Shown in pieces: positions 15,471 through 61,429 of a stretch of 64,000 nucleotides of DNA (positions are counted from its first letter, which is position 1; each line of letters begins with the position of its first letter). The stretch spans positions 1,686,696-1,750,695 of the forward strand of contig NZ_KV917374.1 in the NCBI RefSeq assembly GCF_002019645.1. The letters are read 5' to 3'. The notes beneath the pieces were generated by a model, which saw nothing but the letters and a program-made list of their open reading frames with translations, searched no databases and was not told where the DNA came from. Both the position numbers and the translations under genes were made by a program. Origin of the DNA: Litchfieldia alkalitelluris (GTDB lineage Bacteria; Bacillota; Bacilli; Bacillales; Bacillaceae_L).

Positions 15471-15660
15471 TAGGCGGAGAAATTCCGGTTAATGTATCTA
15501 GTAGGGGCTTAAGAAGCAGATATAAGCGGACAAATTCCTGTTAACGTCTCTAATATATGACTAAATCTAAAGATTAGGTTCATATAAGCGGAAAAATCCT
15601 GTTATTTTTAGGGAAATGTTGATATTTCCCAATTTAAGCGGAATTTTTCCGTTTAAATTC
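15471..15660 (+). repeat. Tandem hairpin array with GCGGA units
   Basis: Four units with the core AAGCGGAnAAATTCC followed by GTTA start (at GCGGA) at 15474, 15526, 15588 and 15638, a spacing of 52, 62 and 50 bp. Each core is a small hairpin (CGGA/TCCG). The last is a long palindrome (TTTAAGCGGAA, then TTCCGTTTAAA). It lies in the 700-bp gap before the ABC operon. Confidence 0.7.
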
Positions 15661-15745
15661 AACCACAGTGAAATCAACATGAAAGGACACATCCATTTAA
15701 AAAGAAAGAAAAAGTAACTCAACTCCTAGAGTGTGATGGAGAAAT

Positions 15746-15836
15746 GTACCCTTTCTATTACAAAAATAGCATAGGGTACAAATAATCGGACTTTCACTCA
15801 CTAAAAAAATTGCCCGGGATTTGCCCGGTTTTTCTT
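15746..15836 (+). other. Structured non-coding segment, possible small RNA or leader
   Basis: GTACCCT and AGGGTAC (15746-15752 and 15773-15779) enclose an inner CTATT/AATAG stem. Downstream CCGGG-ATTTG-CCCGG-TTTTT (about 15814-15835) is a compact terminator-like hairpin. No ORF is present. It could be a small transcript or the remains of a regulatory leader before the ABC operon. Confidence 0.4.
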
Positions 15837-15861
15837 AGTTGCACAAGCATTAACGGTTTCT

Positions 15862-15894
15862 TACTAGTTTTTTATGAACTAGTCTTTTTTTTTT
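15862..15894 (+). terminator. Terminator upstream of the sugar ABC operon
   Basis: ACTAGTT (15863-15869) pairs with AACTAGT (15877-15883), followed by C and a run of ten T. It isolates the ABC operon from upstream transcription. Confidence 0.75.
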
Positions 15895-15938
15895 GCAAAG
15901 TTGAAAAAGTACAGGTGAATAACAAAATAGTACTATTA

Positions 15939-15952
15939 GTAAGCGTTTCCAC
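15939..15952 (+). promoter_or_regulatory. Candidate cre (CcpA) site 1
   Basis: GTAAGCGTTTCCAC resembles the catabolite-responsive element consensus around its central CG and lies 70 bp before ATG 16022. Confidence 0.5.
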
Positions 15953-15979
15953 TCTCTAACTCTACTGATATAGTTAACT

Positions 15980-15993
15980 TGTAAGCATTTACA
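15980..15993 (+). promoter_or_regulatory. Candidate cre-like palindrome 2
   Basis: TGTAAGCATTTACA is palindromic in its outer five bases (TGTAA/TTACA) and 28 bp before ATG 16022. The centre is CA instead of CG. Together with site 1 it suggests glucose repression of the transporter. Confidence 0.4.
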
Positions 15994-16021
15994 AAAACAT
16001 TTTCGAGAGGGGTTCTATAAA

Positions 16022-17131
16022 ATGAAAAAAGGATTTAAATTTTTTGGTGTTTTAGTAACAGCACTTATGATGACTTTTATTGCAGCTTGTGGTAATGGAG
16101 GTAGCGGTTCAAGTGAAGTTAGCGTTGGAATCGTATTACCAACAAAGGATGAGCCAAGATGGGTTCAAGATGAAGCAAGATTTAAAGCAGCACTAGAAGA
16201 TTCTGAATATACAACTGAAATCTTATTTAGCCAAGGTTCTTCTGCAAAAGAAAAAGAGAACGTAGAAACGTTAATTAGTAAAGGGATCGATGTGTTAATC
16301 ATTGCACCTCATGATGGTCCAGCAGCTGGTTCTGCAGTAGAAGCAGCGAAAAAAGAAGGCATTAAAGTTATTTCTTACGATCGTTTAATCACTGATACAG
16401 ACGCAGTTGATTATTATGTAACATTTGACAGCATCGCTGTTGGTCAAGCACAAGGTCAATATTTAGTTGATAATGCACAAGGTTCTGGCGTACCACTTTA
16501 CTTATTCGCTGGTGCATCTTCTGATAACAACGCATTCTTATTCTTTGAAGGTGCTTGGAGTGTTCTTCAACCAAAAATTGCTGATGGTACATTTGTAATC
16601 GCTAACTCTAGTGAAGCTGAAGCATTAAAAGATAAAGCAACGTTAACTCGTGATGAAATGGGTAAAATCTTAGGTCAGGTTACAACGAACTGGGATCCAA
16701 ACGAAGCAAAAAACAAAGCACAAACAAACTTAACAGCTGCAGCTGCTGATGCTAAAGGTGATGTAGCAATTCTTGCTCCAAACGATGGTACTGCACGTTC
16801 AATCGCTGATGTATTCGGATCTGATAGTGCAATAACTAGCTATGTGATCACTGGTCAAGATGCTGAAAAAGCTTCGATTCAATATATCATTGATGGCAAA
16901 CAATCGATGACAGTATTCAAAGATGTTCGTACGTTAGTTGAAGATGCAATGGGAATGGCTGTTACAATCTTAGATGGTAACACTCCAGAAACGACTGGAA
17001 CTTACAATAACGGTGCAACAGATGTAAAAGCAAAACAAACAGATGTAATCGTAGTCAATAAAGACAATGTGAAAGCAGAATTAGTTGACTCAGGATATTA
17101 TGATGCAAGTGAATTTACAGGATTAGAATAA
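16022..17131 (+). CDS. chvE: Multiple-sugar-binding lipoprotein (ChvE-like)
   Basis: A 369-residue lipoprotein with lipobox IAAC (Cys23) and a type I sugar-binding fold. Landmarks match ChvE/MmsE-type proteins: VGIVLPTKDEPRWVQDE, GIDVLIIAPHDG, SYDRLITDT, VTTNWDPNEAKNKAQ, ILAPNDGTA, TGQDAEKASI and KQSMTVFKDVRT. It binds aldoses such as glucose, galactose, arabinose or xylose outside the membrane and docks on the GguAB-type transporter encoded next. ATG 16022 follows GAGAGGGG. A hairpin in the downstream gap fits the usual excess expression of binding protein over the membrane components. Codon use is notably even (highly expressed type). Confidence 0.92.
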   Translation: MKKGFKFFGVLVTALMMTFIAACGNGGSGSSEVSVGIVLPTKDEPRWVQDEARFKAALEDSEYTTEILFSQGSSAKEKENVETLISKGIDVLIIAPHDGPAAGSAVEAAKKEGIKVISYDRLITDTDAVDYYVTFDSIAVGQAQGQYLVDNAQGSGVPLYLFAGASSDNNAFLFFEGAWSVLQPKIADGTFVIANSSEAEALKDKATLTRDEMGKILGQVTTNWDPNEAKNKAQTNLTAAAADAKGDVAILAPNDGTARSIADVFGSDSAITSYVITGQDAEKASIQYIIDGKQSMTVFKDVRTLVEDAMGMAVTILDGNTPETTGTYNNGATDVKAKQTDVIVVNKDNVKAELVDSGYYDASEFTGLE

Positions 17132-17149
17132 TAGAAAAGTAGAATAAGT

Positions 17150-17185
17150 GGAATGAGTGTTAGCACAACGTCTAACGCTCATTCC
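17150..17185 (+). terminator. Intercistronic hairpin between chvE and gguA
   Basis: GGAATGAG-T-GTTAG pairs with CTAAC-G-CTCATTCC over an 8-nt loop (17150-17185). No strong U tract follows (CTCAATTG), so it probably stabilises the binding-protein mRNA or reduces read-through. Confidence 0.6.
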
Positions 17186-17221
17186 TCAATTGTAAAGTTG
17201 TCTTGTTAAGGAGGCAGAACG

Positions 17222-18742
17222 ATGAGCGATTATATTTTAGAGATGAACCAAATATCAAAAGAATTTACAGGTGTGAAGGCGCTCTCTAATGTCAATTTTA
17301 AAGTTGAAAGAGGAGAAATCCACTTCTTAGTAGGAGAAAATGGTGCAGGTAAGTCGACATTAATGAAAGTGCTAAGCGGTGTTTATCCGTATGGAGCGTA
17401 TTCAGGAGATATTGTTTATAATGGGCAAGTTCAACAGTTTAACAAAATCACTGACAGTGTAGATGTAGGAATTGCCATTATTTACCAAGAACTAGCGATG
17501 TTTCCAGATCTTTCCGTTTATGAAAATATATTTGTAGGTAATGAGATTCAAAATGGCGGCGTGATGAACTGGAACAAAGCGATTGTTGAAGCGAAAAAAA
17601 TGTTAGATAAAGTAGGCTTAAAAGTAAACCCCGAATCATTAATTAAAGATTTAGGAGTAGGGAAACAGCAGTTAATCGAAATTGCAAAAGCGTTAAGTAA
17701 AGAAGTAAAGCTACTGATTTTAGACGAACCAACTGCAGCACTTAACGAAGATGATAGTGCCAACTTGCTGGAACTACTTCTCGAATTAAAAAAGCAAGGA
17801 ATCACCTCAATTATGATTTCCCACAAATTAAAAGAAGTAACCGCGATTGCAGATAAAGCAACCGTACTCCGTGACGGGCAAACGATTTGTACATTAGATG
17901 GCTCAAAAGGCGAAATTACAGAAGAGGCCATTATTAAAAACATGGTTGGTCGTGAAATCGAGGATATTTATCCAAAACGACCGAAAAAAGACTTTGGTGA
18001 AAATGTCCTTGAATTATCCAATTGGACAGCTTACGACCCACAGCTTGGACGAAATGTTGCCAATGATGTCAATCTTCATGTGAAACAAGGAGAAATTGTT
18101 GGGATAGCAGGATTAATGGGCTCTGGGCGTACCGAGCTAGCATTAAGTATCTTTGGAAATGCAGCAAAATACAAGATTCAAGGCGATTTATTTATAAAAG
18201 GGCAAGCGGCAAAATTAAAACATCCAAGTGAAGCAATAAAAGCAGGAATCGCTTATGTAACCGAAGATCGTAAAGGTGACGGATTATTTTTACAACAAGA
18301 TATAAAAAGTAATATATCTATTGGGAATTTAAATAATATCTCACCAAAAGGTGTTGTTAATGAAAATGAGGAGATTGTTATTGCGCAAGGATATAGAGAG
18401 TCTTTAACAATTAAAACACCATCATTACAACAGCTTGTTGGAAACTTAAGTGGTGGAAATCAACAAAAAGTTTCTTTAGGGAAATGGTTATTTGTTGGTC
18501 CAAAACTATTAATTTTAGATGAACCGACACGAGGTATTGATGTTGGGGCGAAATTTGAAATTTATACGGTTATGAATGAACTGATCAATAAAGGTATGAG
18601 TATTATTATGATTTCATCAGAGCTTGGTGAAGTTCTGGGTATGAGCGATCGCGTATATGTAATGGCTGAAGGCGAGATCAAAGGTGAGTTGTCTTCAGAG
18701 GAAGCAAATCAAGAAAAGATTATGGAACTTGCGACGCAATAG
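17222..18742 (+). CDS. gguA: Multiple-sugar ABC transporter, double ATPase subunit (GguA/MmsA-like)
   Basis: A 506-residue protein with two ABC ATPase domains, as is normal for CUT2 monosaccharide importers. Domain 1 has Walker A GENGAGKST, a degenerate signature (LGVGKQQLIEIAKAL) and Walker B LLILDEPTAAL. Domain 2 has the altered Walker A GLMGSGRTE, the intact signature LSGGNQQK and LLILDEPTRGID. The segment RPKKDFGENVLEL marks the linker. The PYGAYSGDIVYNG stretch near residue 56 is typical of GguA/XylG relatives. It energises uptake with the adjacent permease, 13 bp downstream. ATG 17222 follows AAGGAGGCAG. Confidence 0.93.
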   Translation: MSDYILEMNQISKEFTGVKALSNVNFKVERGEIHFLVGENGAGKSTLMKVLSGVYPYGAYSGDIVYNGQVQQFNKITDSVDVGIAIIYQELAMFPDLSVYENIFVGNEIQNGGVMNWNKAIVEAKKMLDKVGLKVNPESLIKDLGVGKQQLIEIAKALSKEVKLLILDEPTAALNEDDSANLLELLLELKKQGITSIMISHKLKEVTAIADKATVLRDGQTICTLDGSKGEITEEAIIKNMVGREIEDIYPKRPKKDFGENVLELSNWTAYDPQLGRNVANDVNLHVKQGEIVGIAGLMGSGRTELALSIFGNAAKYKIQGDLFIKGQAAKLKHPSEAIKAGIAYVTEDRKGDGLFLQQDIKSNISIGNLNNISPKGVVNENEEIVIAQGYRESLTIKTPSLQQLVGNLSGGNQQKVSLGKWLFVGPKLLILDEPTRGIDVGAKFEIYTVMNELINKGMSIIMISSELGEVLGMSDRVYVMAEGEIKGELSSEEANQEKIMELATQ

Positions 18743-18755
18743 GAGGTAAATACGT

Positions 18756-19931
18756 ATGAAATATATTAACGAACTAAAAGGGCTTGTAAAGCATAATATA
18801 CGTGATTATGGGATGTATATCGCATTATTTGTTATTATGATCACATTTCAAATCCTTACAAACGGACTATTCATGTCCTCACGAAATATTAGTAACTTAC
18901 TAGATTCTGCAGGTTATATTGCTGTCCTAGCTGTCGGTGTGATGCTTGTCATTGTCATCCGACATATTGACTTATCGATTGGATTTTTAGCTGGTTTTCT
19001 TGGAGCAATAGCAGCAATTCTCCTCATGCAGTTCGGAATGCCAGTATATATCGTCATTCCAATTATTCTAGTTCTCGGTATGTGTGCTGGAGGAATTACG
19101 GGTGTATTAGTAGCAAAAGTGGGAATTCCTGCTTTCGTTGCCACATTAGCTGGATGGCTTATCTATCGTGGTGCAATCCTGATGGCAACAGAAAAAACGG
19201 GTACGATTATTGTAGATAATGATGCATTTAATGCAATTGGTAACGGATATATCCCGTCAATTGCTCAAGTAGGTGGATTACATTTATTATCCTTACTTGT
19301 TGGTTTAGTTGGAATTTTGTTTTACATTTATAGTGCAATTTCTAGTCGTAAAAACAAAATTAAATATGAATTTGATGTAGTATCAAAGCCGATTTTTATT
19401 TTACAATTATTATTCGTTTCAGGAATTATGGCGTATGTAACTTGGCTTCTTGCAGGCTACAATGGGTTCTCTTGGACTGTGATTATTATTCTTCTAGTTG
19501 TTCTAGTTTACCACTTTATTACAACGAAGACAGTTCTTGGACGTCATATATATGCAGTGGGTAGTAACCCTGAAGCAGCCCATCTTACAGGTATTAACGT
19601 AAGCAAAATTACCTTCATTGTGTTTGGTTCAATGGGTATGCTTTCCGCATTATCTGGTATTTTATTCACAGCACGCTTACAATCAGCTACAACAACAGCT
19701 GGAACGTTATTTGAACTTGATGCTATCGCTGCGGCCTTCGTTGGTGGAGTATCTGCAGCTGGTGGGGTTGGTAAAGTAACCGGAGCTGTAATTGGTGCTA
19801 TTGTTATGGCGACATTAACAAATGGAATGAATTTATTAGGTGTAGGTATTGCTCCTCAATATATGATTCGTGGTGGAGTACTAGCAGCAGCCGTTATCTT
19901 TGACGTAATGACACGTAAACAAAGAGCTTAA
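18756..19931 (+). CDS. gguB: Multiple-sugar ABC transporter permease (GguB/MmsB-like)
   Basis: A 391-residue integral membrane subunit of the BPD_transp_2 (CUT2) family, with about ten hydrophobic segments and the family signatures [35 protein letters not shown] and [19 protein letters not shown], then [20 protein letters not shown]. It is longer than RbsC because of an inserted central loop with [17 protein letters not shown], as in XylH/GguB. It forms the translocation channel for the sugar delivered by the ChvE-like protein. The RBS TAGGAGGTAA gives ATG 18756, and a hairpin terminator follows. Confidence 0.93.
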
Positions 19932-19949
19932 TAGTAATGGTGGGGATTG

Positions 19950-19985
19950 GCCCCTTGTCCATGAGGGACAAGGGGCTATTCCTGT
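19950..19985 (+). terminator. Strong hairpin after the sugar ABC operon
   Basis: GCCCCTTGTCC (19950-19960) and GGACAAGGGGC (19966-19976) form a perfect 11-bp stem with a 5-nt loop. The following U tract is weak (TATTCCTGT), so read-through into the chemoreceptor gene is possible. Confidence 0.75.
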
Positions 19986-20008
19986 ATCTCTTTATAGAAG
20001 GTGAGTAT

Positions 20009-21718
20009 ATGAAAAACAAAGTATTTCAGCAGTTTAAGATAAAGTCAATCCGAACAAAAATTTTACTAGGATTTTCAATGGTCATCCTACTCACTGTAGG
20101 ATTTGGTACATATAACTTTATTTCTTCTCAATCGATTAACTCACATGCGAAAGATATGATTACCCATCAAATCCCTTTATTAATTGCCGATGAAACATTA
20201 GGTCAAAATATGGCAGATCGTATTGGAAGTGCAAGGGGATTTGTGTTAACAGGAAAACAAGAGTATATCGATCAATTTAATACATCTTCAGATAAAAGCA
20301 GAAAGGTAGAGGAAACTGCTCTTCAAATTAGTGACTCGGAAGATTTTAAACAATTGGTAGCAAGAAGTGTAGAGTGGGAACAACGTGTGAGAGAAGAAGT
20401 TTTTGCAGTATATGAAAGTGGAAATGAGGCAGTAGCGCAGGACAACCTAGAAGGTCCTTTACGGATAGAGGCTCAAGAAATCATGAGCGGTTATCGATAT
20501 TTAATCAATAATCGTGAAAAGCTTATTGATCGTGCAGGTGAAAATTTACTGAAAAATAATGATTCCAATATGGTTGTTGGAATAACAATCTCTGGTGTTG
20601 TTGCAGTTCTAGGTATTGCCATTGCCATTATGATGTCGACAATCATTTCTAAACCGATTCAAACGGTTACATATCGAATGGGCATACTTGCAGAAGGAGA
20701 TTTAAGTCAAGAACCACTAGTGACAAAATCTGGTGATGAAATTGGCCGATTATTTACAGCGACAAACAAAATGAATGAAAATATTAAAGGATTAGTGAGC
20801 GAAATTCGAACTGTTTCGGGTACAGTATCAGCACAAAGTGAAGAACTAACACAAGCTGCTACTGAAGTGAAAGAAGGAAGTTCTCAAGTTGCCATAACGA
20901 TGCAGGATTTGTCCTCAGGTGCTGAAGTGCAAGCCGATACGGCAAGTGAATTATCTTCTTCGATGCAAGAATTCGCAGACAAAATAAATGATGCGAGTAA
21001 AACCGGAAAAGAAGTTTACCATTCTTCTCAAACTGTGATTAGAATGACAGAAAAGGGAAGCGAACTGATGACGTCTTCTATTCAACAAATGGCCACAATT
21101 CATTCAATAGTAGAAGATGCGACAAATAAAGTAAAGTTACTGGACAAGCAGTCAGAAGAAATTTCTAAACTAGTTGGAGTCATTCAGAGCATTGCTGAAC
21201 AAACAAATCTATTAGCCTTAAATGCTGCCATTGAAGCAGCAAGAGCAGGAGAACATGGAAGAGGCTTTTCAGTGGTAGCAAGCGAAGTAAGAAAGCTAGC
21301 AGAGCAAGTGTCATTCTCTGTTGCTGATATTACCGAGATCGTTGGTAAGATTCAATCTGATTCGAATCTTGTGGCAAAATCCTTACAAACTGGCTATCAA
21401 GAAGTTGAAAATGGAACAGAGCAAATTAAAACGACTGGAGAAATGTTTGAGAAAATCAATCAAGCTCTCTTAGAAATGACTAGAGGAGTACAAGTCATTT
21501 CAGAGAGTCTTAGCACCATTGAAAACAGCAGTGATGAAATCAATAAATCAATCGAAGATATCGCAGCAGTCTCGGAGCAATCTGCAGCAGGAATCCAACA
21601 AACAGCTGCATCTGTGCAACAAACGAGTAGCTCAATGGAAGGCGTTGCTGGTAATGCCGCTCAATTAAACAAATTAGCGGAAAACTTAAATCAACAGGTT
21701 GGTAGGTTTAAGATGTAA
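20009..21718 (+). CDS. Methyl-accepting chemotaxis protein
   Basis: A 569-residue chemoreceptor from ATG 20009 (GAAGGTGAG upstream). An in-frame ATG-like start further upstream lies across the preceding terminator and is rejected. TM1 is at about residues 16-38, an extracellular four-helix-bundle sensor of about 145 residues follows, and TM2 is at about 188-212. A HAMP domain with [18 protein letters not shown] precedes the long cytoplasmic signalling coiled coil with the conserved tip [14 protein letters not shown]. It probably controls the flagellar motor through CheA/CheW. Its position behind the sugar transporter suggests it reads sugar-loaded binding protein, as Trg does for ribose and galactose in E. 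coli; that is inference. Confidence 0.93.
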
Positions 21719-21734
21719 GGAAGATGATAACAGG

Positions 21735-21764
21735 GTTCTCTCCTATTAGGGGGAGAGCTTTTTT
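21735..21764 (+). terminator. Terminator of the chemoreceptor gene
   Basis: GTTCTCTCC and GGGGGAGAGC pair around TATTA, followed by T6. Confidence 0.8.
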
Positions 21765-21927
21765 AGTTCAGACAATAATTCTTTATGATCGTATTGGCTA
21801 ATCCATTAATCTATGATTTTTCTTAAAATAGATATGAAGGACAATGCAGAAAGGTGTCGAATAGTTAAAAATAAAGGATTACAAAATTTAACGGTTAGCA
21901 AGATTATACATTATAGGAGAAGAGACT

Positions 21928-22039
21928 ATGAATTAAGAATATGAAAAATTACTAGAATCTAAGAAAATCATTGAAGCAATAGCAAACGGAATAAACCCTT
22001 TAAATGGTGAACAAATCACTGAGGGGGGTATGCACCATA
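21928..22039 (+). pseudogene. Nonsense-mutated gene start cut off by a REP-like element
   Basis: TATAGGAGAAGAG precedes ATG 21928, but codon 3 is TAA. The same frame then reads EYEKLLESKKIIEAIANGIN, PLNGEQITEGG, and runs into the REP-like copy at 22040. The text resembles the N-terminus of a conserved Bacillus hypothetical protein. A nonsense codon plus loss of the 3' part mark it as a pseudogene. Confidence 0.5.
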
Positions 22040-22068
22040 GGAAGCACGAGAACCGTCCCCACACTTCC
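22040..22068 (+). repeat. REP-like palindromic element, copy 9
   Basis: Forward orientation, GGAAGCACG and ACACTTCC around AGAACCGTCCCC; right arm partly degenerate. It forms the 3' boundary of a broken ORF. Confidence 0.8.
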
Positions 22069-22112
22069 TTAAATTATTTTTATCCAAATTTAAAAATTTT
22101 TGGAAATTATAA

Positions 22113-22141
22113 TTGACAGAAAATATTGATTCGTTTATCAT
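22113..22141 (+). promoter_or_regulatory. Promoter of the allose operon
   Basis: -35 TTGACA (22113-22118), a 17-bp spacer and -10 TATCAT (22136-22141), a near-consensus SigA promoter. The operators lie downstream of it. Confidence 0.65.
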
Positions 22142-22147
22142 AAAAGT

Positions 22148-22161
22148 TGTAAAGGCTTACA
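22148..22161 (+). promoter_or_regulatory. Cre-like palindrome near the allose promoter
   Basis: TGTAAAGGCTTACA has cre-like arms (TGTAA/TTACA) but GG instead of CG in the centre. It overlaps the expected start of transcription. Confidence 0.35.
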
Positions 22162-22177
22162 GTTGTTAAACTTTAAA

Positions 22178-22307
22178 TGGTTAATCGATTTCCCAATACA
22201 TAAAAAACTACTAATCTGTTAAATTAACAGATTAAGGTTTACAGTGGTTAATCGATTACTCTAAAACATAAGCCTTTTTAAAAAATATTTGGTTAATCGA
22301 TTTCTCA
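22178..22307 (+). promoter_or_regulatory. Three LacI-type operators before alsB
   Basis: Copies of TGGTTAATCGATTnCCCA start at 22178, 22245 and 22290, with the palindromic core TAATCGATTA (last base variable). A fourth copy at 28781 lies before rpiB, next to the LacI-family gene, which makes that protein the likely ligand. Between the first and second copies (22212-22234) is a separate 11+1+11 palindrome with arms TAATCTGTTAA/TTAACAGATTA. The operators lie downstream of the -10, consistent with roadblock or looping repression. Confidence 0.75.
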
Positions 22308-22396
22308 AAAAAGGAGGATAGCATTTAAAGAGAAATTTTATCGTCACAATTAGTAAATGAAAGGTTAAAACTATATTAAAAAAGGGGAAATTTCAA

Positions 22397-23383: not shown

Positions 23384-23411
23384 CTTCAAAAAAATACTAG
23401 GAAGTGTTTTT

Positions 23412-24923: not shown

Positions 24924-24936
24924 GGAGAGGTATCTT

Positions 24937-25887: not shown

Positions 25888-25914
25888 AAAACAAATCGGA
25901 AGGCGGAAAATAAC

Positions 25915-26607: not shown

Positions 26608-26620
26608 AAAGTTATCATAT

Positions 26621-26646
26621 TACTTTCACTGAGTAACGTGAAAGTA
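26621..26646 (+). other. Intercistronic hairpin between alsE and alsK
   Basis: TACTTTCAC (26621-26629) and GTGAAAGTA (26638-26646) form a 9-bp stem with an 8-nt loop and no U tract. It is probably an mRNA processing or stability element that sits just before the kinase ribosome-binding site. Confidence 0.5.
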
Positions 26647-26668
26647 GTAAAAAGTGAGGATACGCCAA

Positions 26669-44656: not shown

Positions 44657-44694
44657 TATCTTAATACCAATAAGGGCGGAGCATTAGAGAGGTT

Positions 44695-44915
44695 TCACCG
44701 ACAAAACGACCAGAGCAAGCGGTCAAAATGTCGTGGAGGAAAGGTGTCACCGACAAAACGACCAGAGCAAGTGGTCAAAATGTCGTTGAGTAGAGGTCTC
44801 ACCGACAACACCCCACATCAAGCCTTCCGAACTGTCGTTGATGCAAAGTCTCAACGATAAATCTACCAAAAAAAACAAGTTGTCCATACGTCCTTGAGTC
44901 GAGGTCTTTAGGACA
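44695..44915 (+). repeat. Tandem hairpin array with CGACA...TGTCG units
   Basis: Units beginning TCACCGACA start at 44695, 44747, 44799 and 44851 (52 bp each), with a degenerate fifth at 44907. The first two are nearly identical and later ones drift. Each unit folds as CGACA...GACC...GGTC...TGTCG, a two-part stem. Confidence 0.75.
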
Positions 44916-48408: not shown

Positions 48409-48475
48409 GCATACCTACTATTTAATAACGACGAATTTAGTCGAAAGATAGTAATGAAAGCCCTTACAAAACACA

Positions 48476-48532: not shown

Positions 48533-48559
48533 CTTTTTAAAATAAAGGGGGAAAAGAAG

Positions 48560-49837: not shown

Positions 49838-49847
49838 CTCTAGTTAG

Positions 49848-49874
49848 GAGAGACTGGTCATTTATCAGTCTCTC
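49848..49874 (+). terminator. Intercistronic hairpin after the binding-protein gene
   Basis: GAGAGACTG (49848-49856) and CAGTCTCTC (49866-49874), a perfect 9-bp stem. A second GGAGAGACTGGTC occurs near 49922. No U tract follows, so it probably attenuates rather than ends transcription. Confidence 0.6.
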
Positions 49875-49981
49875 TAAACTGAAACAAATGATTTTGAGTA
49901 CATTAAACCCGTTGAAAACAATGGAGAGACTGGTCTTTTTACAATCTCTTATCTTATAGAAAATTGAAAGGGGGAAATACA

Positions 49982-50932: not shown

Positions 50933-50946
50933 GGAAGTGAGTGTAT

Positions 50947-51789: not shown

Positions 51790-51814
51790 GGTAGCCCCCT
51801 TCATCCAGGCGTCC

Positions 51815-52115
51815 AGGCGAAAACAAGTAGGAAGTAAATATTTGGCCTCTATGATTCAGTTGCTCAATAGAAAATAAGGAGAAAGTAAATCATAGGGCCT
51901 TTTTGATTTAGTTGCTGAAGCGAAAACAAGGGGAAAGTGAATCATAGGCTCTCTATGATTTACTTACCGAGGCGAAAACAAGGTGGAAGTAAATCATAGG
52001 GCCTTTATGATTTAGTTGCTGAAGAGGAAACAAGGAGAAAGTGAATCATAGGGCCTCTATGATTTAGTTGCCGAGGCGAAAACAAGGAGAAAGTAAGTCA
52101 TAGGGTCTATTTTCA
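51815..52115 (+). repeat. Tandem hairpin array inside the operon
   Basis: Six units of about 52 bp with AGGCGAAAACAAGGnGAAAG followed by a hairpin (AATCATAG-GGCCT-CTATGATT in the best copies). Successive anchors fall near 51817, 51868, 51920, 51972, 52024 and 52076. The outer units are degenerate. No gene is present in this 360-bp gap. Confidence 0.8.
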
Positions 52116-52149
52116 AGATAGACACCAACAAAAAAAGAAGGTGAAATCA

Positions 52150-53316: not shown

Positions 53317-53362
53317 TTGAATTCGCACCATCGAGTGTGAAAAGTTTTACACTCAGTGTGGA

Positions 53363-53482
53363 ATGAGCGGAGAGCCACTCGACTCCTGTGGGATCTAGCG
53401 GTTACGTGAGACCCCGCAGGAGCCAAAAGCGACGAGGAGGCTCACGAACCGCCCCACGGAAAGCGAGTGGATCGCAGCTCAT
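53363..53482 (+). repeat. Intergenic structured element with crossing stems
   Basis: About 120 nt with outer stems ATGAGC/GCTCAT and CCACTCG (53375) /CGAGTGG (53464). Two inner pairings interleave: CTCCTGTGGG (53383-53392) with CCCGCAGGAG (53413-53422), and GCGGTT-A-CGTGAG (53398-53410) with CTCACGAACCGC (53441-53452). The order 1-2-1-2 is that of a pseudoknot. I recognise this GCGGAAAGCGAGTGG-type sequence as a kind of intergenic repeat spread in Bacillus genomes. A degraded copy is at 41440. It has no coding capacity. Confidence 0.75.
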
Positions 53483-53539
53483 GGAACTCCACTATCTAGG
53501 TTCGTTTCAGGGTAAATAGATTATTATGGAGGGATTACA

Positions 53540-54655
53540 TTGAAAAAAGTAAAAGTAGGTATCATAGGCTGCGGGAACATAAGTGCAATCTACTTACAAG
53601 CCCCAAAAACACTTGAAATATTAGACGTTATAGCCGTTGCCGACATCGATGTGGAACGGGCAAAATCCAAAGCAGAAGAATACGGCATCAGCAAGGCTTA
53701 TACAGTGGAAGAGCTCCTAGCAGATCCAGAAGTTGAAATTGTCATCAATCTAACGATACCAGGTGCTCATTTTGAAGTATGTATGAAAGCTCTTGAAGCT
53801 GGAAAGCATGTATATGTTGAAAAACCACTCTCGATCGAGCTTGAAGATGGTAAAAAACTATTGCAAGTAGCTGTGGAAAAAGGTCTTCGAGTAGGGTGTG
53901 CTCCAGATACCTTTTTAGGTGGTGGCCTACAAACATGCAGAAAGCTAGTGGATGATGGTTGGATTGGTGAGCCAATTGCAGCAACTGCTTTTATGATGGG
54001 AAATGGACCAGAGGGGTGGCATCCGGATCCAGAGTTTTTTTATAAAAAAGGCGGAGGACCGATGCTTGATATCGGACCTTATTATCTAACAGCACTCATC
54101 AATCTTATCGGACCTATTAAGCGAATCACTGGTTCAGCGCGGGCATCATTCCCAGAGCGGACGATATTAAGTCAGCCAAAATATAAGCAGAAAATTACTG
54201 TTGATGTACCAACACATACAACCGGAATCATCGATTTTGAAGGTGGTGCGATTGCCACTTTGATTACAAGCTTTGATATTTTTGGAGGGTCTAAGCTTCC
54301 GCGCATTGAGTTATATGGGACAGAGGGAACATTAGTGGTCCCTGATCCAAATGAGTTTGGCGGCCCTATTTTTATAAAACGTCGTGGAGAGAAGGAGTGG
54401 TCTCAAGTTCCACTTTCACATGGCTTTACAGAAAATAGCCGTGGGATCGGTGTGGCAGATATGGCGTTTGCGATCGTAAATAATCGACCACATCGTGCTA
54501 GTGGAGAACTAGCCAATCACGTGTTAGAAGCGATGCACGCGTTTCATCTTGCATCTGAAACTGGACAGCACTATGAGATGACAACAAGCTGTGAACGCCC
54601 TGCACCTTTTCCGGTAGGCTTAACAAAAGAAACGCTTGAATTAATTAATCGTTAA
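53540..54655 (+). CDS. Gfo/Idh/MocA-family oxidoreductase (GPYY subtype), second copy
   Basis: A 371-residue paralogue of the 47302 gene product, sharing [46 protein letters not shown] and the Tyr-for-His motif [19 protein letters not shown] 53540 follows ATGGAGGGATTACA. The structured element at 53363-53482 lies directly upstream. The tandem paralogues and their TIM-barrel partners suggest two rounds of similar chemistry, or a duplication of an enzyme pair. Whether it is a dehydrogenase or a reductase in vivo cannot be told from sequence. Confidence 0.88.
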   Translation: MKKVKVGIIGCGNISAIYLQAPKTLEILDVIAVADIDVERAKSKAEEYGISKAYTVEELLADPEVEIVINLTIPGAHFEVCMKALEAGKHVYVEKPLSIELEDGKKLLQVAVEKGLRVGCAPDTFLGGGLQTCRKLVDDGWIGEPIAATAFMMGNGPEGWHPDPEFFYKKGGGPMLDIGPYYLTALINLIGPIKRITGSARASFPERTILSQPKYKQKITVDVPTHTTGIIDFEGGAIATLITSFDIFGGSKLPRIELYGTEGTLVVPDPNEFGGPIFIKRRGEKEWSQVPLSHGFTENSRGIGVADMAFAIVNNRPHRASGELANHVLEAMHAFHLASETGQHYEMTTSCERPAPFPVGLTKETLELINR

Positions 54656-54679
54656 CAAAACTATTTGGAGGTAATGAAT

Positions 54680-55438
54680 ATGGCGAAAATAGGTTTACAA
54701 CTCTACTCCGTTCGGGACAGTGCAGCAGAGGACTTTTTAGGAACAGTAAGTCAGGTAGCAGAAATGGGGTATGATGGAATTCAATTTGCTGGATTTTTTG
54801 ATACACCTTCTCATGAACTTAAGAGAGTACTAGATGAAAAAGGAATCGTCCCTGCAGGTGGTCACTTGGGGCTAGATGTTTTAAAAGGAGAATTCTTAGA
54901 AAAAACACTTCAATATAATAAAGAGATTGGAAACGATTTAATTATATGTCCGTATTTACCTGAAGAGCTTAGGAGGACAGAAGAGGATTATAAAAAAATT
55001 GCCCAGGAATTAAATGAAATTGGCTTAAAGTGTAAGGAACATGGCTTTCGTTTTGCTTATCATAATCATGATTTTGAGTTTCAAACGCTGGGAAAACAGA
55101 CAGGATTTGAACTTTTATTCCAACAAACGGATCCTGAGTTAGTAAAAATGGAACTGGATTGCTATTGGGCCACTTTTGCAGGACTTGATCCGCGCAAAAT
55201 TATTGAGTCATATGGTGACCGTGTCGTTTCTCTACATATTAAAGACATGAAAGTGGTGAATGGTAAAAAGCGTAGTATTGAAATTGGGTCAGGTGAGTTA
55301 GACATTGATGGACTACTACAGGTTGGAAATGACATAGGTGTTGAATGGTATATTATCGAACAGGAGCAATTCGATGGTGACCCGATGGAAAGCTCAGCTA
55401 TTAATATTAAAAACTTACATTCACTCGTAAAACAGTAA
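54680..55438 (+). CDS. Sugar phosphate isomerase/epimerase-like TIM barrel, second
   Basis: A 252-residue xylose isomerase-like TIM barrel starting at ATG 54680 (GGAGGTAAT upstream). Probable metal ligands are in FAYHNHDFEFQ, KMELDCYWATFAG, VSLHIKDMK and YIIEQEQFDG. GLQLYSVRDS at the N-terminus is typical of the subgroup that includes bacterial 3-keto-glucoside hydrolases/lyases and LgdB-like enzymes. It is the last gene of the operon, 24 bp after the Gfo/Idh/MocA gene, and is closed by a strong terminator. Confidence 0.88.
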   Translation: MAKIGLQLYSVRDSAAEDFLGTVSQVAEMGYDGIQFAGFFDTPSHELKRVLDEKGIVPAGGHLGLDVLKGEFLEKTLQYNKEIGNDLIICPYLPEELRRTEEDYKKIAQELNEIGLKCKEHGFRFAYHNHDFEFQTLGKQTGFELLFQQTDPELVKMELDCYWATFAGLDPRKIIESYGDRVVSLHIKDMKVVNGKKRSIEIGSGELDIDGLLQVGNDIGVEWYIIEQEQFDGDPMESSAINIKNLHSLVKQ

Positions 55439-55445
55439 TTTAACC

Positions 55446-55484
55446 ATAGGAAAAGAGTAGGAATCATCTCTTTTCCTATTTTTA
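55446..55484 (+). terminator. Terminator of the XylR-like regulated operon
   Basis: ATAGGAAAAGAG (55446-55457) and CTCTTTTCCTAT (55468-55479), a perfect 12-bp stem followed by T5. Confidence 0.9.
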
Positions 55485-55518
55485 TATGTAACTTAGGGTT
55501 TAGCTGGAGGTGAGTTCG

Positions 55519-56196
55519 ATGAATTCGTTTATTGATGTAAAAGGGGTTCAGCGAGATTTTGGTCAGGGAAATCAAACAATCTCTGTTCTTAAGGGGATAA
55601 ATCTTTCGATTGATCAGCATCAAATGATTGCCTTAAAAGGAAGGTCTGGCTCTGGAAAAACCACACTTTTGAATTTAATAGGGGGCTTGGATCAACCAAC
55701 AAAGGGAGAAATCTATGTTGATGGTCAACAAATTAATACCTTAAGTGATCGGGAATGTTCCGAATATAGAAGAACGAATATCGGCTTTATTTTTCAATCA
55801 CATGGACTGGTTCCTCTAATGACAGTTGAGGAGAATGTGGAATTTAGTCTTCGAGTAGCTGAAATACCTAGAGAAGAATGGAAGACTCGTGTGGAAGAAG
55901 CGTTAGAGCTTGTTGGATTAACGAAAAGAATGAAGCATCTGCCACTAGAAATATCCGGTGGTGAACAACAAAGGGTAGCGATTGCACGTGCAATCGCAGT
56001 CTGTCCCGTTCTCATTTTAGCCGATGAACCTACTGCTGAATTAGACAGTAAACGGTCATATCAATTAATTAATGTATTACAAGAGCTTGTACAGGAGAAA
56101 AAAACGACGATTATCATGACCACCCACGATCCAGCGATTCTAGAAATGCTTGACCATGTCTATCAATTGGAGGATGGAAGAATTGAAGCTGTATAG
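55519..56196 (+). CDS. MacB-type ABC exporter ATPase 1
   Basis: A 225-residue ATPase of the LolD/MacB type: Walker A GRSGSGKTT, Q-loop FIFQSHGLVPLMTVEENVEF, signature ISGGEQQRVAIARAI, Walker B LILADEPTAELDSK and switch His in MTTHDP. ATG 55519 follows TGGAGGTGAG. It overlaps the next gene by 14 bp and should power the FtsX-like permease encoded at 57230, together with the second ATPase gene at 60041. The exported substrate is unknown. Confidence 0.92.
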   Translation: MNSFIDVKGVQRDFGQGNQTISVLKGINLSIDQHQMIALKGRSGSGKTTLLNLIGGLDQPTKGEIYVDGQQINTLSDRECSEYRRTNIGFIFQSHGLVPLMTVEENVEFSLRVAEIPREEWKTRVEEALELVGLTKRMKHLPLEISGGEQQRVAIARAIAVCPVLILADEPTAELDSKRSYQLINVLQELVQEKKTTIIMTTHDPAILEMLDHVYQLEDGRIEAV

Positions 56197-57214
56197 ACGA
56201 TATCGATTGGCAGTGTTGATGATTATTACATTTTTACTATTGTTTCCGTTATCAGCATGTTCACTTCTTCCTAAAGAAGAGCCTGTCCTTGCACCTCCGT
56301 TAGTAGAACCTGCAACAATCGATTATGATACGGTAACGATAAAAACGGGGGACATTGTAAAGCGAGTAAAAGGGATGGGTACGATTGTGCCGCTAGATCA
56401 TCAGCCATTGTCCTTTACACAATCAGGCGGAAGAATAAAGAAAATCCATGTAACAAAGGGAGATGCTGTGAAAAAGGGTCAGGTGTTGGCAGAAGTCGAT
56501 ACAGGGAATCTACAGTATCAACTCGAGTTAGCAAGGATTAACTTAAAAAAGGCGGATTTACGACTAAAACAGCTCCAATCACAACGCTCTGATACATATA
56601 CGATTGACATGGCGAAGTTAGATCAACAAGGCATTGAAATTCAAATCCGTCAGCTTGAGGGAGAACTAACTAACTCATCAATCGTCTCACCTCTTACAGG
56701 AATGGTTACGTTTGTAACAGAGTTAAAGATAGGCGATCTGATACAGGCATTTGAACCAGTTGTCCAGATTGCCGACACGTCTAAGCTGCAAGTCATTTAT
56801 ACGGCTACAGGAGCTGAAGAATTAACGGATATAAAAATTGGTATGAAAGCAGCGTTAAGTGTGGATGGTAAATCGTTAGAAGGAAAAATAACCCAAACCC
56901 CACGGGATGTCCCAAAAGAACTGTTGGAAAAAGATCCTGATCTTTATCAAAGAAGCATCTTTATCTCACTAAATGATATACCAAAGGAAGCAGAGGTAGG
57001 AAGCTCCATTGATCTTGAAATCATTACTGCGAAAAAAGAGAATGTATTAATTTTACCAAAAAGTGCGCTTCGAAGCTCAGGAGGACGTCAATATGTTCAT
57101 GTGTTTGTAGAAGAAGCAAAACGCGAGGTCGATATTGAGGTAGGAATTGTATCAGCTACAGAGGTAGAAGTGATAAGTGGCTTGGATGAAGGTGATACCG
57201 TTATTTTAAAATAA
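56183..57214 (+). CDS. HlyD/MacA-like membrane fusion lipoprotein
   Basis: A 343-residue adaptor protein. TTG 56183 (9 bp after GGAGG) gives an ideal lipoprotein signal: MKLYRRYRLAVLMI then LLLFPLSAC. The body shows an unknotted lipoyl/barrel-sandwich (GGRIKKIHVTKGDAVKKGQV, SPLTGMVTFVTELKIGDLI), a short coiled-coil hairpin (LELARINLKKADLRLKQLQS) and a beta-barrel region ending in GLDEGDTVILK. In Gram-positives such proteins assist MacB-like permeases. It overlaps the upstream ATPase gene and is followed 15 bp later by the permease gene. Confidence 0.88.
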   Translation: MKLYRRYRLAVLMIITFLLLFPLSACSLLPKEEPVLAPPLVEPATIDYDTVTIKTGDIVKRVKGMGTIVPLDHQPLSFTQSGGRIKKIHVTKGDAVKKGQVLAEVDTGNLQYQLELARINLKKADLRLKQLQSQRSDTYTIDMAKLDQQGIEIQIRQLEGELTNSSIVSPLTGMVTFVTELKIGDLIQAFEPVVQIADTSKLQVIYTATGAEELTDIKIGMKAALSVDGKSLEGKITQTPRDVPKELLEKDPDLYQRSIFISLNDIPKEAEVGSSIDLEIITAKKENVLILPKSALRSSGGRQYVHVFVEEAKREVDIEVGIVSATEVEVISGLDEGDTVILK

Positions 57215-57229
57215 AGGGAGGAGAGCTGC

Positions 57230-60040
57230 ATGACAATTATTAAAATTATCATCAGAAAAATGCTAAGTAATCGATGGCTAACTGGCAGCTTATTCCTCGG
57301 ATTACTGATCACGGTGTCACTAGTCTCGAGCATTCCGACTTATACCTCGAGTGTTTTACACAAGCTGTTAGTGAGTGAGCTTGAAGATTATCAAATCAAG
57401 CAAGGGCAGTTTCCTGGGGAGTTCTCATTTTTAACGAATTTTTCGGAGTCAACCGATGTCGATTCTCTTAAGAAAATAGGAGAAATCAATGATGGAATGA
57501 TTAGTGATGTGGGTTTGCCGGCTTTAGCAAAAACATTGATTTTAAGCACTCATCCATATGAAATTAAGTTAGGTGAAAACAGTGACCAACCATTTGGCCG
57601 AATGGTGAGTATGACTAACATTGAAAACCATATTACGATAACCGATGGTGAATTTCCACAATCCTCTAAGGATGACATCATTCAAGTGTTAGTACCTGAA
57701 AAGGCATTACAGAAGAGAGGAATCGTTTTAAACTCACAATTGACGTTAAAAGATGGCGAAGAAACGCTCACCATTCAGCCAGTAGGGACCTTTCGGGCGA
57801 AGGAAACAAATGACCCTTATTGGTCGATTCCACCGGAACGTTATACAGATGATTTTATTGTTGTGGAAGAACTGTTTCAGCAGTTGTTTTTAAAAGATGG
57901 GGTGTTAGCGTCTGCACGCTTTTATACAGCATTTGACTATCACTTGATCCAAGAAAAACAAAGTCAGAAGCTATTAAACTTAGAAAATCGTTTAAAGTCA
58001 GAAGTAAGTGAAGTGAATAAAGAACCGATCATCATCCAATTTCCAATTCATGATCTATTGGTTAGCTATTTAAGTAAAGGGAAGCAGTTAACCATCATGT
58101 TTTGGTCACTAAACATACCAGTGATCATCATGCTCGGTTTATATTTGTTCATGGTATCGCGCTTAATTGTTGAACGGCAGCTGACTGAAATTGCCGTTTT
58201 ATCAAGCAGAGGTGCTAAAAGATCACAAATCATGATGATTTATTTTATCGAAGTCAGCATTCTTGGGATGGTTGCGGTAGTAATTGGTCCCATGATTGGA
58301 TTCGCCTTTTGCAAATTCTTAGGTGCAACAAATGGTTTTCTTGAGTTTGTCCAGAGAGAACCACTTCAAGTTGCTGTGACGATGAAGTCTTATTTGTACG
58401 GAATATGCGCTATCCTTGTTTCAATGGTGATGGTGATGCTACCAGTCTATCAAGCTTCAAAAAAGAGTATTGTCCATCATAAGCAAACATTGACAAAGGC
58501 GATGGTTGCTCATGAATGGTATTCGCTACTTGTGGCGGTTCTCTTTTTAATTTTTTCAATATATGGTTTATTTGTATTTAAAAATAGACAGCCAGCTGCG
58601 CATGGAGAGGAGTTATTTGTTGATCCGATTCTCTTTTTCATTCCAGCGCTATTCATTATTGGTGTTGCGTTGCTATTCTTACAAATTTATCCTTTACTAT
58701 TAAAGACTTTGTATCGTATAGGAGAGAAGTATTGGAGCTTATCATTGTTTAGTACGTTTATACAGGTTAGTCGATCATCAAGGCAGTATCAGTTTCTGAT
58801 GCTTTTTCTAATGATGACGATTGGTATTGGAATCTTTAGTGCAAGCTCTGCACGTACATTGAATCTAAACCTTGAGCAGCAGATTCGCTATAAAAATGGA
58901 GCAGATCTTGTTTTAGACGTCAAATGGGAAAGTACTAGCATTCAGTCACTTCCTGTATCAGGATCCACGACTCCAGCTACCTCAGAAACCGAGGAAAATG
59001 CTGTGACCGAGAAAGACGTTGTGTATTCAGAACCACCATTTGATCCTTTTTTAAAACTAGAAGAAGTTGAACATGCTGCAAAAGTTTTACAAAAAGATGA
59101 TATAACGGTTGAAGCAAAAGGGAAATCTCTCTTTTCAATGAAGTTAATGGGAATTGAGCCAAATGAGTTTGGTCAAACGGCTTGGTTTAAATCATCTTTA
59201 CTTCCGTCTCATTGGTATGGCTATTTAAACTTGTTAGCAGCCGAACCCAGCTCAGTGTTAATCTCTAGTAAAATAGCAGATTCATTAGATGTAACAACCG
59301 GTGATTATTTAACGTTAAAAGATTCATCATCAAACTCAATGGAAGTAGTCATATATGAAATTATGGACTATTGGCCGACATTTAACCCCTCCCTTAAAAA
59401 TGAAGATGGAGGAGAAGCGGGACTGATTGTGGCGAACCTTCCATATGTACAAAACAGAATGTCACTTGAGCCTTATCAAGTATGGCTGAAGGTAAAAGAA
59501 GAGAAATCAAGAGCAACTTTGTACGAAAGTGTGAAAAAAGCAGAAATCCCAGTTATCAATATAAGTGATATCCATCCAAAGCTAGTAGAGTTGAAAAATA
59601 GCGCCTTTCTACTAGGGTTAAATGGTACCCTTTCACTAGGTTTCTTGATTTCGGTAGGGATTGCGTTCGTAGGTTTTTTACTTTATTGGATTTTAACAAT
59701 CCAAGCACGAACTCTTCAATATGGGATTTACCGTGCAATGGGTGTGCCATTAAGAAAATTAATAGCTATCTTAGTTTATGAGCAGTTGTTTACATCAGGG
59801 GTTGCAGCGGTTTTAGGCCTGATCATCGGAGGAATAACAAGTATCTTATATGTTCCCTTATTTCAAATTTCCTTTGATCCACAGCAAATGGTACCACCTT
59901 TTCAAGTAATCTTTGATCCAAGTGATGAACGGAAGATTTATGTATTTGTTACATTGATGTTGGTGATTGGCTTAACCATTTTTATTTTATTTTTAAAGAA
60001 GCTGAACATTCATCAAGCCGTAAAGTTAGGTGAGGATTAA
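57230..60040 (+). CDS. Large FtsX-family ABC permease
   Basis: A 936-residue permease with two FtsX-like modules. An N-terminal span (LTGSLFLGLLITVSLVSSI) leads to a large extracellular domain. Membrane segments cluster at about residues 287-410 and 425-530, a second extracellular domain follows at about 545-775, and the final spans lie at about 780-930. The segments ERQLTEIAVLSSRGAKRSQI and ARTLQYGIYRAMGVPLRKL are the two cytoplasmic coupling motifs of the FtsX fold. It forms the exporter with the flanking ATPases. Possible roles are peptide, lipid or antibiotic export or envelope stress response; the sequence does not decide. Confidence 0.9.
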   Translation: MTIIKIIIRKMLSNRWLTGSLFLGLLITVSLVSSIPTYTSSVLHKLLVSELEDYQIKQGQFPGEFSFLTNFSESTDVDSLKKIGEINDGMISDVGLPALAKTLILSTHPYEIKLGENSDQPFGRMVSMTNIENHITITDGEFPQSSKDDIIQVLVPEKALQKRGIVLNSQLTLKDGEETLTIQPVGTFRAKETNDPYWSIPPERYTDDFIVVEELFQQLFLKDGVLASARFYTAFDYHLIQEKQSQKLLNLENRLKSEVSEVNKEPIIIQFPIHDLLVSYLSKGKQLTIMFWSLNIPVIIMLGLYLFMVSRLIVERQLTEIAVLSSRGAKRSQIMMIYFIEVSILGMVAVVIGPMIGFAFCKFLGATNGFLEFVQREPLQVAVTMKSYLYGICAILVSMVMVMLPVYQASKKSIVHHKQTLTKAMVAHEWYSLLVAVLFLIFSIYGLFVFKNRQPAAHGEELFVDPILFFIPALFIIGVALLFLQIYPLLLKTLYRIGEKYWSLSLFSTFIQVSRSSRQYQFLMLFLMMTIGIGIFSASSARTLNLNLEQQIRYKNGADLVLDVKWESTSIQSLPVSGSTTPATSETEENAVTEKDVVYSEPPFDPFLKLEEVEHAAKVLQKDDITVEAKGKSLFSMKLMGIEPNEFGQTAWFKSSLLPSHWYGYLNLLAAEPSSVLISSKIADSLDVTTGDYLTLKDSSSNSMEVVIYEIMDYWPTFNPSLKNEDGGEAGLIVANLPYVQNRMSLEPYQVWLKVKEEKSRATLYESVKKAEIPVINISDIHPKLVELKNSAFLLGLNGTLSLGFLISVGIAFVGFLLYWILTIQARTLQYGIYRAMGVPLRKLIAILVYEQLFTSGVAAVLGLIIGGITSILYVPLFQISFDPQQMVPPFQVIFDPSDERKIYVFVTLMLVIGLTIFILFLKKLNIHQAVKLGED

Positions 60041-60925
60041 ATGATACTTTGTCAAAATCTATTAAAGATTTATAAGGTCGATGACGATCATGAAGTGATG
60101 GCATTACAAGGGCTTGATTTAGAGGTTGAACAAGGCGAATTCATGGGGATTATTGGAACCAGTGGGAGCGGGAAATCGACTTTATTAAACATTCTTGGGG
60201 GACTAGATCGTCCAACTGCAGGCACGTGCAGCATTGATGGGAAAGATTTAGTGAAGATGTCTGATAAAGAGCTTGTGAGATATAAACTAGAAACCGTAGG
60301 GTTTGTTTGGCAAAATAACGCAAGAAATCTTATTCCATATTTAACTGCGATGGAAAACGTCGAGCTTCCAATGCTTCTAAAAGGAAAACAAAGCCGTGAA
60401 CGAGCAAGGGAGCTTCTTGAACTAGTGGGAATGGGTCATCGATTAAATAGTAAGTTAAGCATGCTCTCTGGTGGTGAACAGCAACGAGTAGCGATTTCGA
60501 TTGCACTTGCTAATAGCCCTAGATTATTACTAGCAGATGAACCAACAGGAAGTGTGGATTCGAAAACAGCTGATGTCATTTTAGATGTGTTTCGTGAAAT
60601 CAACCGTAGCCTAAATGTTACCATTGTCATCGTGACTCATGATACTGAACTGATGAAAAAAATGGATCGAGTCGTCGCGATTCGCAATGGAAAAACATCA
60701 AGTGAAATCATAAGACGTACTTTTGATGAAATGGAAGGAATCGAGCAGCAGCAAGGAAACACACTAGAGGACACACATGTAGAGTTAGCTGTCATTGACA
60801 AAGCGGGTAGAATTCAAGTGCCTCGAGACTACCTAAACGCGATTGGTCTTGAAAAAGAGAAAGCGAATAAACTAGAGGTTAAATTAGAGAATGGGAAGAT
60901 TATTTTAGTGAATCCGAAACGGTAA
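60041..60925 (+). CDS. ABC exporter ATPase 2 with C-terminal AbrB-like domain
   Basis: A 294-residue protein. Residues 1-225 are a MacB/LolD-type ATPase: Walker A GTSGSGKST, Q-loop FVWQNNARNLIPYLTAMENV, signature LSGGEQQRVAISIAL, Walker B LLLADEPTGSVDSK and switch VTHD. Residues about 248-294 form a swapped-hairpin AbrB/SpoVT-like segment (VIDKAGRIQVPRDYLNAIGL then LEVKLENGKIILVNP). An AbrB DNA-binding-type fold on an exporter ATPase is unusual; it may serve dimerisation or tie transport to regulation. ATG 60041 directly follows the permease stop. Confidence 0.9.
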   Translation: MILCQNLLKIYKVDDDHEVMALQGLDLEVEQGEFMGIIGTSGSGKSTLLNILGGLDRPTAGTCSIDGKDLVKMSDKELVRYKLETVGFVWQNNARNLIPYLTAMENVELPMLLKGKQSRERARELLELVGMGHRLNSKLSMLSGGEQQRVAISIALANSPRLLLADEPTGSVDSKTADVILDVFREINRSLNVTIVIVTHDTELMKKMDRVVAIRNGKTSSEIIRRTFDEMEGIEQQQGNTLEDTHVELAVIDKAGRIQVPRDYLNAIGLEKEKANKLEVKLENGKIILVNPKR

Positions 60926-60992
60926 GGGCTATTGTCGTAAGTAATGTAATCAGGCACTGGCTTTGATTCCCTTATTAGGGCTTTTGGCGAGA

Positions 60993-61429
60993 GAAAGGGA
61001 ATCAAACAACGTCTTTCGTTCCCTTGCACCGGTGTTTGGCGGGAGAAAGGGAATCAAACAACGTCTTTCGTTCCCTTGCACCGGCTTTTGGCGAGAGAAA
61101 GGGAATGAAACAGCGCCTTTCGTTCCCTTGCACCGGCTTTTGGCAAGAGAAAGGGAATGAAACAGCGCCTTTCGTTCCCTTGCACCGGCTTTGGCAAGAG
61201 AAAGGGAATGAAACAGCGCCTTTCGTTCCCTTGCACCGGCTTTGGCAAGAGAAAGGGAATGAAACAGCGCCTTTCGTTCCCTTGCACCGGCGTTTGGCGA
61301 GAGAAAGGGAATCAGACACCGCCTTTCGTTCCCTTGCACCGGCTTTTGGCGAGAGAAAGGGAATCAAACAGCGTCTTTCGTTCCCTTCCGACGGCTTTTG
61401 GCAAGAGAAAGGGAATCAAACAGCGCCTA
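60993..61429. repeat. Nine-unit 52-bp hairpin array between convergent genes
   Basis: GAAAGGGAAT anchors occur at 60993, 61045, 61097, 61149, 61200, 61251, 61303, 61355 and 61407, spaced 52 bp (twice 51). Each unit holds AAGGGAA-T-GAAA pairing with TTTC-G-TTCCCTT, then GCACCGGCTTTTGGC. The ninth unit is cut off at the yesL-like stop codon. A weaker half-unit precedes the first. Long open frames across it are products of the repeat. Confidence 0.92.

Follow-up and report, generated by a model that had tools for sequence, protein, structure and literature searches.

The unit length of a tandem repeat is usually regarded as an accident of the founding duplication. A 64,000-nucleotide stretch of the Litchfieldia alkalitelluris genome (hereafter the window) raises the question of whether this holds generally, as a preliminary description placed in it four hairpin arrays of different sequences that share a period of about 52 bp. 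A sharply defined length shared by unrelated sequences in different genera implies a physical ruler, which could be either a phased DNA-binding protein or an amplification process that measures length. The matter is directly testable, since such arrays are dense (11 in 460 kb of the window's genome) and easily found in complete genomes.

Three of the four arrays stand. TRF gives a period of 52 in the window at 44687-44808, 51817-52105 and 60979-61428, and we name these arrays F4, F2 and F1 after their unit families (Table 1). The steps previously read in two of them are recovered: in the F1 array six steps measure 52 and two measure 51, and the F4 array, set out in rows of 52 and followed past 44808 through degenerate units to about 44915, has steps of 52, 52, 52 and 56, with a scan by a reference motif giving 52, 52 and 56. 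The F2 array is flanked by a permease gene and an oxidoreductase gene, both on the same strand, and the F1 array lies in the convergent gap between genes for an ABC ATPase and a DUF624 protein. None of the window's three arrays has a flank that matches the flanks of other arrays, no further copy of F4 was matched in the window's genome, and there is no Rfam match at gathering score within the window. No empty site could be read near the gene at 52141, the relatives with this gene lacking the adjoining permease gene in the five loci examined; a search of 16 further genomes of the family for the gene at 60041 gave nothing at E 1e-60, which leaves no empty site readable there.

Table 1. Repeat features of the window and of further sampled loci, with their coordinates
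Feature	Locus	Coordinates	Strand	Remarks
F4 array	window	44687..44915	+	two good 52-bp units, then degenerate ones; arms CGACA/TGTCG
F2 array	window	51815..52108	+	5.6 units of 52 bp; arms AATCATAG/CTATGATT
F1 array	window	60979..61428	+	8.7 units of 51-52 bp; boxes AAGGGAAT/ATTCCCTT
Dispersed element (~220 bp)	window	15450..15670	+	one copy, not an array; no TRF row; copies genome-wide
GC-rich hairpin element (~221 bp)	window	53322-53511
GC-rich hairpin element (~221 bp)	L030	12429-13106
GC-rich hairpin element (~221 bp)	L048	8132-8563
20-21 bp array	L032	11273-12053
20-21 bp array	L031	18871-19732
20-21 bp array	L193	1-175
20-21 bp array	L241	5758-5911
20-21 bp arrays	L265, L267, L268	~2816-2932
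Array of period 104 (2 x 52)	L031	1600-2029		AAATCCGGC-like boxes ~20.8 bp apart
CRISPR-like arrays	L254	3357-14652		73-bp period; genome G318 of another order

The fourth array, which had been placed at 15474, is rejected as a 52-bp array: it yields no TRF row, its motifs are unevenly spaced (52, 62 and 50) and match one another over just 12-16 bp, and the sequence belongs to an element scattered through the genome, of which it is a single copy. This element is present in at least 40 copies in the genome, the window's included (40 of 82 first-look candidates were scored), the other listed copies being 78-95% identical to that of the window. Its strand tracks the replication arms, as judged by the GC skew of the sampled stretches, in all 39 placeable copies among those listed; the copy at 385706 falls between sampled stretches. 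As RNA the element folds better than its shuffles (z -4.0). Its strict strand bias would fit insertion via single-stranded DNA, or a transcript.

Unit length was surveyed with TRF over 180 stretches (3.50 Mb), and 29 of the 49 non-coding arrays so obtained have a period of 51-53 bp. Such a survey had been named beforehand as the refuting test for the idea of a shared unit length, and it returned a sharp excess at 51-53 bp and not a broad distribution. A coding period as its cause is rejected: an array was classed as coding, and excluded prior to counting, when an ORF of 100 aa or longer covered at least 90% of it and its period was a multiple of three. This filter removed two 51-bp arrays (L072:12832 and L197:18709), so the figure of 29 is conservative. 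TRF is blind to units less than about 70% alike, and loci L200 and L201, having been located via hits of a further family, F3, were omitted. The remaining 20 periods are scattered, the commonest being 73, from three CRISPR-like arrays of one genome. From the window's genome (5.43 Mb) the sample comprised 20 stretches on an even grid plus the window, together 460 kb, with 17 non-coding arrays of 2.5 copies or more and a period from 25 bp upwards; 11 of these have period 52, and the other six have periods of 82, 104, 164, 214, 221 and 256.

Beyond these 11, the 51-53 bp arrays come from genome G006 of the same family (four), from two other families of the order (three), from genomes G128 and G292 of one genus (five), from Litchfieldia alkalitelluris together with Ammoniphilus resinae (three), from a Litchfieldia follow-up (two) and from one genome of another order (one). 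Survey groups E, G and H consist of genomes picked for bearing arrays, and sampling of the G006 grid was completed after its first half had shown arrays. None was seen in the follow-up of genome G026, in three other stretches of the same family or in 30 stretches outside Bacillota. The trait is patchy: among 38 stretches of the order, one per family, two have a 51-53 bp array, five have any non-coding array and 33 have none.

Within the window's genome there are at least three large unit families, F1, F2 and F3, together with the lone F4. F1 occurs at no fewer than about 40 places; its exact pattern has 224 matches (115 forward and 109 reverse), some units matching on both strands, which gives at least 115 exact units. 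F2 occurs at no fewer than about 30 places, and F3 is marked by the arms AAAGCTGTCCGAA. Litchfieldia has at least three additional unit families. A search for F1 in 16 further genomes of the family gave no match, and its exact pattern has none in 120 other genomes of the class. The F3 pattern is present in four of 299 genomes of the order, namely the window's and three from one genus of another family, in which the F3 arrays likewise have 52-bp steps. Carriage by phages or plasmids was considered and rejected, as the exact F3 and F1 patterns have no match in viral contigs, and one F3 and one F1 array have no blastn match in plasmids.

When 20 unit families were compared without gaps in all rotations and on both strands, four of the 190 pairs reached p <= 0.01 (1.9 expected) and seven reached p <= 0.05 (9.5 expected); since these counts are near expectation, the families are no more alike than chance. 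The core of the original idea, a shared spacing without shared sequence, is thus supported. The accompanying statement that the arrays of the window differ in sequence is doubtful for one pair, those at 51817 and 60979. Aligned in register, the consensus units of these two arrays share 30 of 52 positions (z 6.6; 0 of 60 shuffles), and other representatives of F1 and F2 agree at 29 of 52, with p 0.007, which is the minimum of the test and belongs to one of the 190 pairs. At L028 584-1310 an F1 array has F2-type palindromes on both sides, approximately in 52-bp phase. One family seems here to have grown inside another, and judging by these alignments F1 and F2 may be distant relatives.

The units of F1, F2, F3 and some others contain two inverted arms, often of 13 bp, and two spacers that together make up 26 bp (7 + 19 in F1, 5 + 21 in F2 and 11 + 15 in F3). 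Among arrays with arms, the arms are less variable than the spacers in 46 of 50 distinct cases (47 of 51 rows, one array being entered twice as L038 and L052), with pooled values of 5.6% and 12.3%. This comparison was made without the duplicates L010 and L012, the pattern-fetched loci L147, L148, L149 and L152, and arrays with fewer than five clean units or a weak palindrome. The F3 arms are constant between the window's genome and the other family of the order, and the spacers vary from array to array; in L237 the spacer sequences are shuffled and spacer length is constant. Wherever boxes are visible, the conserved part is the box sequence. Counting steps to the next box within 160 bp on one strand, in the sampled loci of the window's genome, we found steps of exactly 52 in 356 of 508 cases for F1 (a further 95 being 51), 57 of 72 for F2 and 93 of 118 for F3, and an inner spacing of 24 in 219 cases for F1. 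Over 629 steps in all, with five arrays entered twice, 74 are of 51 and 23 of 53, and L011, an array of 25 copies, has mostly 51-bp steps.

The hairpin fared less well than the period. The preliminary description gave each unit one palindrome, whereas a palindrome is significant (p <= 0.05) in just 10 of 21 units; in the window those at 51817 and 44687 pass, and that at 60979 has p 0.079. Paired arm changes within arrays number one in F1 (1.8 expected), eight in F2 (3.5 expected) and four in F3 (2.0 expected), and they retain Watson-Crick pairing in four of eight cases in F2 and four of four in F3. Compensatory stem changes of the kind that mark structured RNA are thus absent from F1 and slightly above chance in F2 and F3. 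Mismatches are moreover fixed, with C.C in 19 of 25 F1 arrays and G.G in 15 of 18 F2 arrays. As a significant palindrome is missing from 11 of the 21 units and compensation of arm changes is rare, the hairpin is rejected as the common factor and as the general cause of the period; length is what stays constant.

Arrays favour convergent gaps and avoid divergent (promoter) gaps. In the long stretches, 33 arrays were eligible, of which four were dropped for want of a clear gap; the 29 placed lie in 11 convergent, 17 co-directional and one divergent gap, whereas the remaining gaps of 100 bp or longer comprise 84 convergent, 367 co-directional and 104 divergent ones (Fisher test, p 0.003 for the convergent excess and 0.043 for the divergent deficit). 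Flanks matching at least five other array flanks are found in 21 of 25 F1 arrays and 15 of 18 F2 arrays, and a single left-flank motif recurs at 12 distinct F1 loci. Many F1 and F2 arrays lie in or beside dispersed elements, other copies of which contain a GC-rich hairpin. Among F3 arrays one in 10 has such a flank match, and arrays of other species match within the same genome only. If the arc borders are taken to lie at 0.45 and 3.15 Mb, the listed copies of F1 are unbiased in strand relative to replication (19 of 40) and those of F2 are biased (24 of 30, p 0.001).

Observed directly are the period and its occurrence in unrelated sequences of several genera, the conserved arms and near-constant spacer length of those families that have arms, and the bias towards convergent gaps. 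The reading that we prefer, at a probability of roughly 0.4, is that these are intergenic, satellite-like arrays of boxes in which the unit is held at five helical turns (51-53 bp) by phased protein binding; it is favoured because arms and spacing are both conserved. Each unit would be a box, often an inverted pair, for a putative sequence-specific DNA-binding protein, with a different putative protein for each unit family. Neighbouring units would stand five turns apart (5 x 10.4 = 52 bp), a spacing at which proteins bound to them would face the same way and bind cooperatively. The arrays would grow and be homogenised through slippage or ordinary recombination, and changes in length would be lost where they disturb the phase. 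The spacing is near a whole number of turns in the 29 of 49 arrays at 51-53 bp, although the tolerance of L011 for 51 bp speaks against strict phase, and conserved boxes with free spacers are seen in the 46 of 50 distinct arrays with arms mentioned above. The suggestion that all hairpins face one side of the helix is only hinted at: 52 bp is five turns of 10.4 bp, and the periods of nine further short non-coding arrays tend towards whole turns (p 0.009 with 10.4 bp to the turn and 0.02 with 10.5, a post hoc selection), whereas all 17 other periods together have no such lean (p 0.17 at 10.4 and 0.15 at 10.5). This lean and a class of 20-21 bp arrays described below are post hoc hints. Phased binding is weakened because the 51-bp units of L011 would rotate out of phase at 10.4 bp per turn, because several families in one genome would require several proteins, because the 11 units lacking a significant palindrome have no evident boxes, and because the many F1 and F2 arrays inside dispersed elements would suit selfish DNA as well.

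An unlikely but serious alternative is a ruler blind to sequence, by which an enzyme or replication event that duplicates a fixed length of about 52 bp seeds and extends arrays anywhere, so that no later binding is necessary. Such a generating process is favoured because some families have no palindrome, the period being more general than the palindrome; it also agrees with families that are private to species or genera, as F1 is among the genomes of its family and class, and with F3 and other-species arrays that mostly have unrelated flanks. Pure copying, however, requires no conservation of arms over spacers, as seen in 46 of 50 arrays, and we know of no enzyme with a fixed duplication product of about 52 bp. 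Rather more doubtful is descent from one old 52-bp array, the sequence of which has become saturated while its unit length drifted little. The possible kinship of F1 and F2 (30 of 52 positions, and the nesting at L028) and the greater rarity of indels relative to substitutions are in line with it, but the 190 pairs of families are near chance similarity (4 against 1.9 and 7 against 9.5), and because one-base length changes do arise and spread, as attested by an entire 51-bp array and by the 629 steps, of which 74 measure 51 and 23 measure 53, saturation of the sequence should have widened the lengths too.

Mobile palindromes of the IS200/IS605 or RAYT type, comparable to REP/BIME arrays, are an improbable source. 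A Y1_Tnp domain (PF01797) is encoded in nine of nine array-bearing genomes searched and in five of the search tool's 14 control genomes. Many F1 arrays lie inside a dispersed element with conserved ends, and L227, from the window's genome, contains about two F1-type units (~2701-2796, steps ~51) at a distance of some 400 bp from fragments of a broken Y1_Tnp. In a search by family motifs of 17 distinct Y1_Tnp loci (at most 5.7 kb each, one locus having been entered twice), L227 is nevertheless the sole one with array-like units of a family belonging to its own genome, and six further Y1_Tnp loci have no 52-bp array by TRF alone; the link to Y1 transposases, at one of 17 loci, is weak. A RAYT-like gene (a 265 aa ORF) in the window's genome, at L224 2180-3200, is followed by an array of 37 bp and of different sequence, which also tells against mobile palindromes. 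More improbable still is that the arrays are transcribed and act as RNA hairpins, whether terminators, 3' ends or sponges. The bias to convergent gaps and the few paired changes in F2 and F3 speak for this reading, but the window has no Rfam match, mismatches are kept in F1 and F2, F1 has fewer paired changes than expected and no strand bias with respect to replication, and a significant palindrome is absent from 11 of 21 units.

Tandem repeats in intergenic DNA are familiar; what is new is a single fixed unit length across unrelated sequences and genera. Bacterial minisatellites of the VNTR type, e.g. mycobacterial interspersed repetitive units, vary in copy number and as a set have a broad range of unit lengths. 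The present arrays, by TRF, have tandem units within the minisatellite range of about 10-100 bp and share with VNTRs an intergenic position and units of tens of bp, but 29 of 49 fall at 51-53 bp despite unrelated sequences. Phased protein-binding arrays such as iterons use one sequence at an origin; they resemble our arrays in the near whole-turn spacing of their boxes, whereas the latter are scattered along the chromosome, with avoidance of divergent gaps. CRISPR arrays likewise have a regular period and conserved palindromic parts with variable parts between them, but their identical repeats with unique spacers are not found here: the spacers are about 5-21 bp long and largely repeated within an array. 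The REP sequences or PUs of enterobacteria are palindromic units of 30-37 bp that are intergenic and often clustered, and most E. coli minisatellites are PUs (PMC2884548). F1-F3 arrays are similar in being intergenic, multi-copy, palindromic and sometimes clustered, but REP/BIME are one sequence family, whereas the families described here are numerous and unrelated and share one fixed period. A significant palindrome is moreover missing from about half of the units (11 of 21), and there is little sign of a linked transposase, array-like units lying near one Y1_Tnp locus in 17 (about two F1-type units at L227). No description of 52-bp arrays in Bacillales was found in the literature searched, which was covered mainly by abstracts, most subscription papers being outside reach. 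We tentatively suggest, while considering it somewhat doubtful, that Bacillales may possess a process responsive to the length of DNA and indifferent to its sequence, which would make or keep non-coding arrays of five turns (51-53 bp) in any sequence and would have run separately in several genera to give private families with or without palindromes, i.e. a satellite DNA defined by spacing alone.

Two further kinds of repeat were noted. The GC-rich hairpin element of about 221 bp (Table 1) is represented by 41 blastn pieces in the 460 kb sampled and by none in six transposase loci; some copies are tandem, its ends are common to elements that bear F1 arrays, and its copy in the window is not recognised by Rfam. 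Direct-repeat arrays of 20-21 bp, about two turns, form a second class of arrays in the same bacteria, and three of them, each from a different species, lie upstream of one and the same oxidoreductase gene.
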